A stretch of 43,040 bases of DNA from a virus. The stretch is taken from positions 1-43,040 of the IMG/VR virus record IMGVR_UViG_3300008217_000015; one strand, 5' to 3'. Within the stretch, counting starts at the first letter, position 1. Every line of letters begins with the position of its first letter. Positions 12,721-28,925 of the stretch are shown piece by piece. The position numbers and the translations under genes are program-made. The notes under the pieces were generated by a model. The model was not told where the DNA came from, ran no database searches, and worked only from the letters and a program-made list of their open reading frames with translations.

Positions 12721-13121
12721 TGGCTGAAGAGGTTACAACTAGCTATCAGCTCCAAGTAAGTCCTGTTAATGGTAATCATGACGCTCAAGGGCCTGTGGCT
12801 AAATGGGTTCGTTCTATGTGGCGACCGTGTGCTGCAATTATATATCTTTTTATATGTTTATTTGATTTTGTTATTGCGCCTTGGTTTATTCAGGTCGAGA
12901 TGACAAGTTTATCTGAAATCTTTACTTATATTTTACAAATGCCTTCGGATCAACAAGCTCAAGCTTTAAATACTTTAACTACTCCGCGCTCTTGGGAGAG
13001 TTTAACTTTGCAAGGGGGCGGTTTATTTCATATTGCTTATGGAGGGATTTTAGGGGCTAGCGCATGGACTCGGGGAATGGAAAAACGAGAAAGAGCAGCA
13101 GTTGAGAAAGTAGCAAAATAA
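12720..13121 (+). CDS. Holin
   Basis: 133 residues. Segment VRSMWRPCAAIIYLFICLF followed by DFVIAPWFIQ is typical of the phage holin family with an RP motif before the first membrane helix. A second hydrophobic stretch lies near residues 100-112 (LFHIAYGGILGASAW), and a charged C-terminus (REKRERAAVEKVAK-like) follows. It would form inner-membrane lesions that release the lysozyme encoded at 16319-16762 on the other strand. AGGAAAGG precedes the ATG, which overlaps the nuclease stop. Confidence 0.75.
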   Translation: MAEEVTTSYQLQVSPVNGNHDAQGPVAKWVRSMWRPCAAIIYLFICLFDFVIAPWFIQVEMTSLSEIFTYILQMPSDQQAQALNTLTTPRSWESLTLQGGGLFHIAYGGILGASAWTRGMEKRERAAVEKVAK

Positions 13122-13156
13122 TGCAAAAGCAAACTTTAAATTTGGAAGGAAAGATT

Positions 13157-13999
13157 ATGACACAACTAATTAACCCCGAACGTTTTACGTTAATTAATGG
13201 CCTATTGAGGTCATTTTTTTTGGACAAAGGTTTTCACGAAGTCCATACCCAGAATAGATTAAGTATATTGGCGGCTTGTGAAGACCCTTCTACCGTCAGC
13301 ACTTATAATTATGCAGGCAATATTTGGCCTCTTCCGCAAACTGGCCAGATGTGGTTAGAATATGAATTACTTACCCGCCCCTCTTCGAAGGGGTTTTTTT
13401 GTATCTCTACGTCATACAGACAAGAACCAAATCCAGTAGAAGGAAGACATGAACTTATATTTCCTATGTTTGAATTTGAGTTTCCCGGTACGTTTGTAGA
13501 ACTTGAAATTATGGAAAAAGAGTTAGTAGATTATTTAAATTTTAGTACTCAAAATGAAATAATTTCTAAAGATTATGAAGATTGGACAGATGAATTTGGT
13601 GTAAAAGAACTTACTAATGCTGAGGAAGAATCGATGCATGATAAGTGGAAAGGTAAAGTATGTATGATAAAAAACTTTCCTAATTATACTAGTCCTTTTT
13701 GGAATATGAAACAAAACGGTAATGGAACTGCTGCTAAGATAGACGTGATTATAGCTGGACAAGAAACAATAGGGTCAGCAGAGCGTAGTAGTGATACTGA
13801 AGAAATGCGTCATATGTTTCACACAATAAGTGATGGAAAATACGCAGAATTATTGTTTAACCAATTCAGCAAAGAACGTGTAGAGAAAGAATTGAACGAG
13901 TTCTTGAATCATGATTTCATTCCTAGAGTGGGAGGAGGAATTGGAATAACACGGTTATTGAGGGCATACGAATTTTATAACGGTGCAACTGTTCACTAA
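13157..13999 (+). CDS. Class IIb aminoacyl-tRNA synthetase-like protein, closest to AsnRS/AspRS core
   Basis: 280 residues from the ATG at 13157, which has AAGGA 6 bases upstream. An in-frame ATG at 13121 overlaps the holin stop and would add 12 residues. Class II motifs are visible: a motif 1-like segment (LLRSFFLDKGFHEVHTQ), motif 2 (STSYRQEPNP...RHELIFPMFEFEF) and motif 3 (RVGGGIGITRLLRA). AAKIDVIIAGQETIGSAER resembles the AsnRS/AspRS core. It lacks the N-terminal anticodon-binding OB domain and ends soon after motif 3, so it may not read an anticodon. A tRNA with GTT anticodon follows 10 bases later. Alternatives are a ligase-like paralogue acting on a small molecule. Confidence 0.75.
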   Translation: MTQLINPERFTLINGLLRSFFLDKGFHEVHTQNRLSILAACEDPSTVSTYNYAGNIWPLPQTGQMWLEYELLTRPSSKGFFCISTSYRQEPNPVEGRHELIFPMFEFEFPGTFVELEIMEKELVDYLNFSTQNEIISKDYEDWTDEFGVKELTNAEEESMHDKWKGKVCMIKNFPNYTSPFWNMKQNGNGTAAKIDVIIAGQETIGSAERSSDTEEMRHMFHTISDGKYAELLFNQFSKERVEKELNEFLNHDFIPRVGGGIGITRLLRAYEFYNGATVH

Positions 14000-14009
14000 T
14001 ACTGATTGA

Positions 14010-14096
14010 TCCGGGGTGATGGAAATGGGAGACATGCTAGCCTGTTTAGCTAGTGCTTGAAAGAGCATGCTGGTTCGAATCCAGCCCTCGGAGCCA
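14010..14096 (+). tRNA. tRNA with GTT (Asn) anticodon but long variable arm
   Basis: 87 bases including encoded CCA. Acceptor 14010-14016 pairs with 14086-14092 (one G-T). D arm is ATG/CAT with a Leu-like loop. Anticodon stem CTAGC/GCTAG (14037-14041, 14049-14053) closes loop CTGTTTA, giving anticodon GTT at 14044-14046. Variable arm 14054-14068 has a TGCT/AGCA stem. T stem GCTGG/CCAGC closes loop TTCGAAT. Discriminator is G (14093). A long variable arm is normal for Leu, Ser and bacterial Tyr tRNAs, not Asn. G73 and GTT are Asn identity elements. Position 37 is T, which is unusual. Confidence 0.9.
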
Positions 14097-14107
14097 GTAT
14101 TTTGTAT

Positions 14108-14135
14108 AAAAAAAGCCCCTTTATGGGGCTTTTTT
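14108..14135. terminator. Bidirectional rho-independent terminator between the two arms
   Basis: GCCCC (14115-14119) and GGGGC (14125-14129) flank a 5-base loop, with seven A before and six T after, so the stem extends through A-T pairs and gives a U-tract in both directions. It ends the rightward block after the tRNA and overlaps the stop codon of the last leftward gene (14134-14136), so it serves both converging transcripts. Confidence 0.9.
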
Positions 14136-14616
14136 ACAGTATACCAGAAAATCTTGTTTCTGCTTTTTTATCCCACCATTCGTGGTCTAAAAGAATATAA
14201 CCTCTTCCTATTAAACATTTTGCGGTATAAAAATTTATTTTAAAATTACTTGTCCACGAAGACCACATAAATCCACCTATTGCTCCTGCTGCGGCTCCAC
14301 TTATTACAGTGGTGGACATAGCTAACGTAGGATCAGGGAATATGGAATTTATTGCGTAGTTAGTAGTTCCGCTTTGAATTATTCCTTTTCCGGTATCGGT
14401 AGCAATATTAGCGTGTCCTTGTACGTGAGCACTTGACCATGAATAACACTCTGCATAATCTCTTTGGTACTGAGAAGGATCAGAAACAGTTGCTAAATCT
14501 ACTTCTGCTTTTTTTGTGTGCCACCATCTGAAATCTTCAAAGTCACTGGTTGTACAACCGAGTAATATCGTACTAAGAATTAATTGAGAACAGAGTGTCC
14601 GCGTCCGTGTAAGCAT
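14134..14616 (-). CDS. Lipoprotein with glycine-zipper segment
   Basis: 160 residues. A signal with lipobox STILLGC places the lipidated Cys at residue 21. A Gly/Ala-rich hydrophobic segment (ISGAAAGAIGGFMW) resembles a glycine zipper. A CYSW...CLIGRGY pair of Cys-containing motifs is shared with the lipoprotein gene just upstream, so they look like paralogues, this one carrying the zipper insert. It overlaps the upstream gene by 37 bases and ends in the shared terminator. It could act in the outer membrane at lysis or in superinfection exclusion; neither is shown. Confidence 0.65.
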   Translation of the reverse strand: MLTRTRTLCSQLILSTILLGCTTSDFEDFRWWHTKKAEVDLATVSDPSQYQRDYAECYSWSSAHVQGHANIATDTGKGIIQSGTTNYAINSIFPDPTLAMSTTVISGAAAGAIGGFMWSSWTSNFKINFYTAKCLIGRGYILLDHEWWDKKAETRFSGIL

Positions 14617-26121: not shown

Positions 26122-26535
26122 CTAAGGTATTCTATAGCTACCCTTGATTACACGTTCTGCAAATAATGCTGCATTAATTGCGCCGTGTTTTCCTATCGAC
26201 ATACATGCAACAGGTACACCTTTAGGCATTTGTGATATGCTTAATAAACTATCTAATCCTAATAAGTCAGACTTCATTGGAACACCTATTACTGGTAAAG
26301 TCGTATATGCTGCAACTACTCCAGGTAGTGCAGCAGACATGCCGGCGGCTGCGATAATTACTTTCATTCCCTTGCTAATCGCACCAGTAGTCCATTCTCT
26401 TACTTTTTCCGGTGTTCTATGTGCAGACGCAACAATAGTCTCATTTGTAATATTTAATTCATCTAACTTATCTGAACAATGCGTCATCATTTCCAGATCA
26501 GACGCACTACCCATTATTATTCCAACTTCGCTCAT
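26122..26535 (-). CDS. purE: PurE, N5-carboxyaminoimidazole ribonucleotide mutase
   Basis: 137 residues. Class I PurE motifs: [10 protein letters not shown] at the N-terminus, [11 protein letters not shown] with the catalytic His region, [42 protein letters not shown] and a GAINAAL helix. It converts N5-CAIR to CAIR in purine synthesis. AAAGGG precedes the ATG. Slightly shorter than typical bacterial PurE (~160). With PurS and a phosphoribosyltransferase nearby it forms a purine-supply module borrowed from a host. Confidence 0.93.
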
Positions 26536-26907: not shown

Positions 26908-27247
26908 GAAACATCACAGCTCCTAGAGCAGTTGCTGTACAGCAGCCTACTGTTTTACTAAGTTCGTTAAATCTTACAGTTATTTTACCTACTTTTAGAT
27001 TCTCTAACCAGTTCTTAGCACTTTTAAATGAGTCAAAACCCATTACGAAAGTTCCCACTATTCCACACTTTTTTGTTTTTTCAGCGTGAAAGTAGTATTT
27101 ATCTTTAAGATGAACATACCATATTTTATTGTATTTGTAAAGGTGTCCAATAACTACATCGTTTTTTTCATAAATAGGTCTGACTCCTTTTACTAACTCT
27201 TCTTCTGAGTACCAAGAATAATTTGGGAGTTTGAGGTAAAAATTCAT
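26894..27247 (-). CDS. Hypothetical protein
   Basis: 117 residues, with many Tyr, Phe and Lys residues (NFYLKLPNYSWYSEEELVKG, YKYNKIWYVHLKDKYYFH). A small Cys cluster (KTVGCCTATALG) lies near the end. No family recognised. It overlaps the PRTase gene by 4 bases (ATGA type) and purS by 14, so it is translated with nucleotide-synthesis genes. Function unknown. Confidence 0.6.
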   Translation of the reverse strand: MNFYLKLPNYSWYSEEELVKGVRPIYEKNDVVIGHLYKYNKIWYVHLKDKYYFHAEKTKKCGIVGTFVMGFDSFKSAKNWLENLKVGKITVRFNELSKTVGCCTATALGAVMFHEKS

Positions 27248-27633
27248 GATGTTGGCATCTGAAATAAAGGAGTTACCCAGTCAGGACAAGTAAAACGAGC
27301 AAATACCACCCACCCAAAAACGTTAGGAACAAAGCGGAAGCTTTTTTCGTAGGATTTAGTTTTTTCCATAGAAGTTCCTGTTGTTAAAACATCATCTACA
27401 ATAAGTATAGGGTCTTTAGGATTTTGTGTAGCATGATTATTTAAAATGCAGGCTAGTTTTGTTCCTCCTGTTGGAATTCCTACGCACTTAAAGAACGATC
27501 GGTGTTCGTAACTTATTATCATTTTAGCAATGCATTCCCATTCTGGGTCTGATAAAGCATCCATTTCGATTTTCCAAGTTAATGGTAAGCCAGCGTGAGA
27601 TGTAAAGTTTATTGATTGAAATAGGTCTGTCAT
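27244..27633 (-). CDS. Phosphoribosyltransferase (PRTase)
   Basis: 129 residues from the ATG at 27633, which overlaps the helicase stop (ATGA); an upstream ATG at 27660 has no ribosome site. The PRPP-binding motif PILIVDDVLTTGTSM is clear, and GIPTGGTKLACIL is the PPi-loop region. Length and the hood (FTSHAGLPLTWKIE) suggest an orotate-type or purine PRTase, but the base cannot be read. It adds to the purine genes downstream. Confidence 0.85.
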   Translation of the reverse strand: MTDLFQSINFTSHAGLPLTWKIEMDALSDPEWECIAKMIISYEHRSFFKCVGIPTGGTKLACILNNHATQNPKDPILIVDDVLTTGTSMEKTKSYEKSFRFVPNVFGWVVFARFTCPDWVTPLFQMPTS

Positions 27634-28925
27634 ATTGTAAATTCTTTCTCTCGATACCATTTTAATCGGTTCATTTGTTGATTATGGACTATGGCCCCAT
27701 TAAACTGAAAATCTCTAATTACTGGATGTTTTTTTTCGGGATGTTGTCGTAATATTCTCCCGATTCGTTGTTCTAATTTAATGGGATTATTGCTTGGGCA
27801 GGTTAAGTAAAGTGTATCTAAACGATGACAACTAATTCCTTCATCAAAGATTTTAGTTGATAAGATAGCTTTATATTTTGTTCCTGCATTTTGAAGTATA
27901 TCCTTTCTTTGTTCCTCTTTTGTTTCTCCAATTAAAAGCGCGCTTTTATTAATAAGCGTGTGTAATTTTTTCAACATCCCTACCCTATCTGATAAAATTA
28001 GGGGGCACCTTCCGTTGGCGATATCTCGGTTAGCAATTTCGCTAATTAAATTAATATATTCTGTTAGCTCTCCTAATTTAGTTAGTTGTTTACCCCAATC
28101 TTTTTTTGGATCAAATACTGTAAATGGAATGTCTGTTATTACAAACTTTACGCTTGGATTTTCTTTTTTATTAGGATCTTCGGCATAAATTTTAAAAGGA
28201 GTAAAATAGTCAGATAGAACAAGATGTTTGCCGTCTTTTCTTTTAGGAGTTGCTGTGATTGCAATTTTTATTTTACAATTAATGTTATTAAGGGCAGTAG
28301 AAAACATTTCTGCTGGACATAAGTGCGCTTCATCTACTATAACCATACTAAAAGTGTTATTTAAATAAGGTAAGTTATTGTACACGCTTTTATAAATTCC
28401 AACTGTAAGTTCTTGAATATTGAACTCTCCGTCTCCAACAGTTCCTATAGGAGTGTTAGGAATTTGTTTTTTTAACTCTTCTTGCCATTGTTTAAACAAT
28501 AGTTTGGTATGGACTAAAATAAGGGTAGGTAAATGAGCTTTTGCAATAAGATGACACCCTACGTAAGTCTTACCCCATCCACAAGGTGCTTGAAATAAAC
28601 CGCTGGTAATACGGTTTTTACGACTAAAAAATGCATCTGATACTTTTTGTTGTTCTGGTCTTAACTTACCACTAAAATGAAACGGAATTTTCGCCTCTAT
28701 AAATTGTCTGTTATCAGTATACTTATCTATTTCGAGCTTATGGTAAGCGTTACTAGGAATAGTATAAAGCTCAGTTTCAGAATCGTATTGAAACCACTCA
28801 AAAATATCTTTATCTAATATAGTCCGAAATCTCGATTCAAAAACTGCAGAATCATCTATATCTTTTTTATAGATATATATTTTATCCTGTAAAATAGCGT
28901 TTTTAACTTTAATTTTGGGTAGCAT
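27630..28925 (-). CDS. SF2 helicase (UvsW / type III restriction-like)
   Basis: 431 residues. R89-P-E-Q-Q before motif I, Walker A APCGWGKT (113-120), DEAH box VDEAHLC (198-201), TATPKR (224-229) and motif VI EQRIGRILRQ. This is the DEAD/ResIII helicase layout of T4 UvsW-like proteins that unwind branched DNA and R-loops. It probably acts in fork restart with the recombination genes downstream. Its start lies 3 bases after the previous stop. Confidence 0.9.
   Translation of the reverse strand: MLPKIKVKNAILQDKIYIYKKDIDDSAVFESRFRTILDKDIFEWFQYDSETELYTIPSNAYHKLEIDKYTDNRQFIEAKIPFHFSGKLRPEQQKVSDAFFSRKNRITSGLFQAPCGWGKTYVGCHLIAKAHLPTLILVHTKLLFKQWQEELKKQIPNTPIGTVGDGEFNIQELTVGIYKSVYNNLPYLNNTFSMVIVDEAHLCPAEMFSTALNNINCKIKIAITATPKRKDGKHLVLSDYFTPFKIYAEDPNKKENPSVKFVITDIPFTVFDPKKDWGKQLTKLGELTEYINLISEIANRDIANGRCPLILSDRVGMLKKLHTLINKSALLIGETKEEQRKDILQNAGTKYKAILSTKIFDEGISCHRLDTLYLTCPSNNPIKLEQRIGRILRQHPEKKHPVIRDFQFNGAIVHNQQMNRLKWYREKEFTI

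Follow-up and report, generated by a model that had tools for sequence, protein, structure and literature searches.

What does a virus gain from an asparaginyl-tRNA synthetase (AsnRS)-like gene that is followed, almost without a gap, by a tRNA gene carrying Asn marks on a long-armed, Leu-like body? Such a locus was found in the window, i.e., the whole 43,040-base stretch analysed here (positions 1 to 43,040 of virus record IMGVR_UViG_3300008217_000015). The reading frame of the enzyme is open from 13121 (13121-13999, plus strand), and since its relatives all begin at the methionine of a conserved MTQLI, 13157 is the likely start, which gives an AsnRS-like class IIb catalytic core of 280 amino acids (13157-13999). 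A type II tRNA with anticodon GTT lies on the same strand at 14010-14096, 10 nt past the enzyme stop codon (the median in relatives is 7 nt). Behind it, a terminator-like hairpin, GCCCC-TTTAT-GGGGC, was recognised by sequence inspection at 14107-14136; it is flanked by A and T runs and is common to the tRNA side and the convergent minus-strand genes. A first-pass annotation, made from the letters of the window, had offered a self-contained charging pair, a tRNA reading Asn codons with another amino acid, or a decoy against host tRNA-cutting defences. The conservation and gene neighbourhoods described below point to a phage pyrimidine-precursor module, in which an AsnRS-derived enzyme would feed dihydroorotate to PyrD, and we give this reading a probability of roughly one half.

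The sole Pfam match of the enzyme was tRNA-synt_2, the catalytic domain of the class II D/K/N synthetases (5e-15, residues 25-280), and its AlphaFold2 model was a confident single catalytic core (pLDDT 91.6); the N-terminal OB-fold that serves as anticodon-binding domain is absent, in agreement with the first-pass annotation. Class II motifs 2 (SYRQE..GRH) and 3 (GGGIGITR) are present with their ATP-binding Arg residues, together with the segment ETIGSAER. Residues R88, E90, H98, E203, R210 and R266 were invariant among 45 viral members and in the joint viral and bacterial set, and the catalytic and pocket residues are conserved without exception in bacterial and phage members alike. Comparison with AsnRS, AspRS and AsnA placed AsnRS nearest by both profile and structure: Brugia and human AsnRS ranked first in the profile search, and the best PDB match of the model was AsnRS with bound Asn-adenylate (1x54, E 8.8e-18, TM 0.76). 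The NCBIfam scores were all far below cut-off, with 24.2 bits (cut-off 414) and 22.6 bits (342.6) for the AsnRS models, 21.6 bits (264) for EpmA/PoxA, and values likewise far too low for the AspRS and LysRS models. PHROGs assigned the protein to phrog_29758 (1e-115), a family of 'unknown function'. The segment QTGQMWLE aligned with QSSQLYLE of AsnRS, the AsnRS-type QxxLE, a site at which AspRS carries a lysine (QLFKQ), and this alignment suggests an Asn-type pocket. The mean net charge of the enzyme in the phage set was -19, which does not look like tRNA binding, and a list of the phage-specific conserved residues indicated no tRNA-binding patch. The enzyme therefore resembles AsnRS (class IIb, AsnS) in fold, in motifs 2 and 3 and in the QxxLE pocket, while it differs from AsnRS in lacking the N-terminal anticodon domain and in lying, in bacteria, with pyrimidine genes. 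As part of the module explanation, and at its even odds, we take the enzyme to be an AsnRS paralogue that would have kept ATP and Asn binding and lost the anticodon domain.

The tRNA was called by ARAGORN at 14010-14096 (plus strand, anticodon GTT) and scored 43.3 bits with the Rfam tRNA model (E 4.5e-8 with 401 bases searched), while an Rfam gathering run over the whole window missed it. Its acceptor strands TCCGGGG/CCTCGGA give U1-A72 and G73, and CCA is encoded. The D-arm is of the tRNA-Leu type, the variable arm has 15 nt, and the anticodon loop CTGTTTA contains U33, G34 U35 U36, U37 and A38, so that the first pass was right to describe a Leu-like body with a long arm and Asn marks. In bacteria, the Asn identity set consists of the anticodon triplet and G73; U1-A72, in turn, is what the Asp-tRNA(Asn) amidotransferase recognises (PMC9976931).

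To follow selection on the tRNA, 48 distinct copies from the loci of the protein-based scan were compared. G34, U35 and G73 occurred in all of them, U1-A72 in 47 (U-G in the remaining one) and U36 in 46 (C36 in two), and thus GTT was retained in 46/48; the full Asn set of the window tRNA (G34 U35 U36, G73, U1-A72) recurs at 46-48 of 48. Position 33 was U in 23 copies, A in 18, C in six and G in one, and position 37 was U in 43, G in three and A in two, leaving a purine in 5/48. On the ribosome, both U33 and purine 37 are important. As controls, 60 other ARAGORN tRNAs from the same loci were used, of which three were themselves pair tRNAs and were removed, and both features were present in 57/57. 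Fisher tests of copies against controls gave p 3e-11 for U33 and p 3e-24 for purine 37, values that overstate independence among related sequences. The first pass was right about the odd T37. The loss of U33 among relatives had escaped that reading because the window copy has U33, and for the window tRNA the argument against decoding accordingly rests on orthology with its relatives.

The tRNA fold is under selection: 99.1% of the cells in the alignment were paired, and 20 of 24 pairs showed changes on both sides. Because all five anticodon-stem pairs covary, the 7-nt anticodon loop is fixed, which ruled out a mis-set loop (9 nt, or in shifted register). The variable arm measured 13-38 nt in every distinct copy except one (L056, 6 nt), and G18-G19 was retained. 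The family thus departs from ordinary decoding tRNA-Asn, which has U33 and purine 37 as a rule and a short variable loop, and also from tRNA-Leu, whose mark A73 is replaced by G73 throughout. The suggestion that Asn codons are read with Ser or Leu did not survive, with the decoding marks not conserved, the Asn set kept and A73 never present. From these base frequencies, selection appears to keep the chargeability of the tRNA and not its decoding. Two kinds of variant were also seen. One PyrE-linked copy (L246, 6284-6360) is a short GTT tRNA of 77 nt with the loop TTGTTGG, and could mark the origin or the decay of the tRNA. Three copies, accompanied by nearly the same enzyme, are Asp-type versions of the tRNA: they combine a GTC anticodon with U33, G37 and a variable arm of 27 nt.

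These patterns bear on two of the readings offered in the first pass. If the locus were a self-contained translation pair, the enzyme would load Asn (or Asp) onto its tRNA, which would then decode AAY in phage mRNA, escaping host control. The AsnRS fold and motifs, the retention of GTT and the strict linkage of the two genes would fit; the release of U33 and purine 37 that every control tRNA keeps, the missing anticodon domain, and bacterial relatives that lie in pyrimidine operons with no such tRNA would not, and we consider this reading unlikely. Charging by host AsnRS or AspRS is plausible, and fits at least as well as charging by the phage enzyme, because G34-U35 is invariant and the enzyme is strongly negative and without an anticodon domain. 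A decoy or resistant tRNA, aimed at host nucleases that cleave anticodons of the GU type, would account for an invariant G34-U35 in an otherwise variable loop, and phage tRNAs that evade tRNA-cutting defences are known (e.g., PMC11555353). It leaves unexplained the exclusive linkage to one metabolic enzyme, the tight conservation of U1-A72 and G73 and the pyrimidine neighbours, and seems to us very improbable.

The linkage of the two genes was examined from both sides. A protein-based scan found relatives of the enzyme in at least 598 viral stretches, and 63 of the 80 nearest loci have the tRNA behind the enzyme, in the same orientation and typically 4-11 nt past the stop codon; two of the 17 loci without it end at a contig edge. 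A second viral scan used the tRNA pattern alone, with protein information left aside, and returned 80 marine loci, three of them cut at a contig end. The enzyme was upstream on the same strand in all 77 evaluable loci (within 300 bases in 76, at 350 in one), which rules out an assembly artefact or chance pairing. On the phage side the pair is obligate, and the worry raised in the first pass, that relatives might not conserve it, falls because they do. The pair also occurs in the Prochlorococcus phages P-SSM2, P-SSM5 and P-SSM7. In P-SSM2 and P-SSM7 the 'tRNA ligase' genes PSSM2_198 and PSSM7_129 belong to the same family (60-61% identity, tRNA just downstream), and their label is annotation only, with no function assigned. 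The P-SSM2 tRNA sequence directly follows PSSM2_198 (~162083-162168); in the record (AY939844.2), tRNA-Asn PSSM2_199 is annotated at 164094-164179, inside another ORF and ~2 kb off, and the record coordinates look shifted.

In a quick tree with modest supports, the bacterial members were deeper and the phage branch was nested among them. Several phage sub-branches have no tRNA near the enzyme, and where the neighbouring tRNA was missing, none of its kind was found elsewhere in the records, which are mostly fragments for viruses. On this tree, the tRNA would have been gained near the base of the phage branch and lost in a few sub-branches. Two giant phages (735 kb and 484 kb) have a deep-branching enzyme without the odd tRNA, and carry a normal tRNA-Asn elsewhere in the record. 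Seven contigs from bins labelled archaea, Flavobacteriaceae, Chloroflexi or Neomarinimicrobiota also carry phage-branch copies, several with the tRNA; these are probably phage contigs in metagenome-assembled genomes (MAGs).

The close spacing raises another explanation, that the tRNA acts in cis on the enzyme mRNA, in 3' processing or stability or as a feedback element bound by the enzyme, much as ThrRS binds a tRNA-like operator. Nearly all copies are spaced at 4-11 nt, which speaks for it, as do three loci (including L056) in which the tRNA starts within the end of the enzyme gene and overlaps its stop codon by 5 nt (ATGTAGGG), an arrangement in which processing of the mRNA and of the tRNA must compete. 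A full tRNA anatomy with Asn marks and the covariation described above exceed what a cis signal needs, and a few copies lie 43-350 nt from the enzyme, so that we regard a cis element as distinctly unlikely.

Outside the viruses, a scan of genome contigs found 125 relatives of the enzyme in Patescibacteria, Bacteroidota, Midichloriaceae, Pasteurella atlantica and others. Clustering of the neighbours at 73 bacterial loci gave PyrE/PyrF-type genes at 21 and PyrD at 18, identities that NCBIfam confirmed. Among the gene orders, P. atlantica has PyrD-enzyme-PyrF-PyrE and Midichloriaceae enzyme-PyrF-PyrE-PyrD. In patescibacterial loci, with eight noted as examples, the neighbours are often a Dus-like flavin enzyme, DnaX and tRNA-Gln instead of pyr genes. 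This link to pyrimidine biosynthesis cannot be seen in the window alone and was missed in the first pass.

The genes for the early pyrimidine steps are largely absent from the same bacteria. Among 20 enzyme-bearing bacterial genomes, matches above cut-off were found for PyrB in one, CarB in three, multi-type PyrC in one, dimer-type PyrC in none and DHODH in 17, compared with PyrB and CarB in 14/14 control genomes. Several of the 20 are MAGs, in any single one of which an absence is weak evidence, and the sole PyrB match was partial, in a MAG that also has CarB and PyrC matches. Weak PyrB and PyrC matches below cut-off turned out to be ornithine carbamoyltransferases and an allantoinase. In the complete chromosome of P. 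atlantica, carB, pyrB and pyrC are absent. Within the order of Aureispira (150 genomes), PyrB (aspartate carbamoyltransferase) was present in 0/7 genomes with the enzyme versus 122/143 without it (p 4e-6). The enzyme and PyrB are thus mutually exclusive, and the enzyme is present where PyrB is absent and PyrD present, the pattern proposed for a bypass. AsnRS was absent from nine of the 20 genomes and coexists with the enzyme in 11. A tRNA of the pair type was absent from the bacterial genomes checked, where the best model matches were normal Leu, Ser and Tyr tRNAs. Because these genomes and several phage sub-branches have none, the enzyme can work without the tRNA.

The same data bear on whether the enzyme is an AsnA-like asparagine synthetase that supplies Asn, with an indirect link to pyrimidines. 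Archaeal AsnA (3p8t) is likewise an AsnRS paralogue without anticodon domain that was recruited to amino acid metabolism, and NCBIfam gave weak AsnA matches. These reached only 27.1 bits against a cut-off of 389 and 22.6 against 322, the profile search gave archaeal AsnA an E of 0.044 and AsnRS as best relative, and, unlike archaeal AsnA, the enzyme is tied to a tRNA and to the pyrD/E/F genes. An asparagine supply would also leave the absence of PyrB, PyrC and CarB unexplained, and we judge it improbable.

Pyrimidine genes accompany the pair in some phages as well. In six loci PyrD precedes the enzyme by 33 bases and the tRNA follows it; in two, PyrE precedes enzyme and tRNA; and in one, PyrD, enzyme, tRNA and PyrE stand together. 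Among the 80 loci of the tRNA-pattern scan, a PyrE-like gene was in the flank of 11 and PyrD in that of two, and most of the nearest phages have no pyr gene within 5 kb of the pair. Three PyrE/PyrD phages without the enzyme have no such tRNA, and the tRNA was therefore rejected as a general part of pyr cassettes. In the window, a PyrE-like small phosphoribosyltransferase (orotate phosphoribosyltransferase; 27244-27660, minus strand, motif ILIVDDVLTTGTS) does not adjoin the pair and lies 13 kb from it. By BLAST it falls into one cluster with the genes that follow PyrF in five pyr operons; its Pfam match to Pribosyltran (6.8e-4) is below cut-off, and it has no NCBIfam match. Nucleotide metabolism is further represented by a PurE-like AIR carboxylase (26122-26535, minus strand, Pfam AIRC 6e-50), a dUTPase and ribonucleotide reductase. 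At the contig end, 42762-43040, a minus-strand open frame is built from a repeated GTITPPTCQLPLTR-like unit.

In the pyrimidine-precursor module, dihydroorotate from the enzyme would pass to PyrD in bacteria and phages, bypassing CarAB, PyrB and PyrC. The enzyme would use Asn, CO2 and ATP, first forming Asn-AMP. The activated Asn could then capture CO2 on its alpha-amine, as an N-carboxyanhydride or carbamate, and its side-chain amide nitrogen would attack and close the ring, releasing the presumed product L-dihydroorotate with AMP. The balance is satisfied, as dihydroorotate equals Asn plus CO2 minus H2O, and aminoacyl adenylates are known to give N-carboxyanhydrides when CO2 is present (PMC6462974). 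Such a one-step replacement would explain why PyrD, PyrE and PyrF alone are kept. The classical route, CarAB-PyrB-PyrC, uses unrelated protein families and leads to dihydroorotate, the product proposed here for the enzyme; it likewise stands next to PyrD/E/F, and its genes are lacking where the enzyme occurs.

In the phage branch, the dedicated tRNA would accompany the enzyme as a non-ribosomal partner. Loaded with Asn, either by the phage enzyme or by a host synthetase, and diverted from translation, it might be a substrate, a carrier or an activating ligand of the enzyme. Three readings can be drawn. Asn-tRNA may be the true substrate, in which case bacteria would draw on their own tRNA-Asn and phages would supply one that is safe from use in translation; the tRNA may activate the enzyme as a ligand; or it may be charged in the phage branch for some other use. 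A tRNA-dependent synthesis, in which a single enzyme derived from AsnRS takes the place of carbamoyl phosphate synthetase, aspartate carbamoyltransferase and dihydroorotase, carboxylating Asn on a dedicated, non-decoding tRNA (or with the tRNA as cofactor) and cyclising it to dihydroorotate, is a tentative proposal to which we give clearly less weight than to the module itself.

Parts of this arrangement have parallels. The non-proteinogenic Gly-tRNAs of the Staphylococcus cell wall are charged yet tuned away from the ribosome (PMC4052509); they alter EF-Tu contacts and G18-G19, whereas the pair tRNAs keep G18-G19, release positions 33 and 37, and have an AsnRS-like enzyme as partner. In valanimycin synthesis, VlmL (a SerRS homologue) and VlmA (a Ser-tRNA-using enzyme) likewise bring a synthetase paralogue and an aminoacyl-tRNA into metabolism (PMC4052509), but in an antibiotic pathway, and a dedicated tRNA gene is not reported for that system. 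In the open-access literature we found no AsnRS-like gene of this kind, no phage long-arm tRNA-Asn and no alternative dihydroorotate route, which does not prove that none has been described.

The six-step route to UMP is among the best-conserved pathways. If its first three steps are indeed replaced by one enzyme derived from an aminoacyl-tRNA synthetase, this would be new central metabolism, ranging over free-living bacteria, symbionts and abundant marine phages. The tRNA lineage, which keeps its charging marks and releases U33 and purine 37, would offer a natural experiment that separates charging from decoding.
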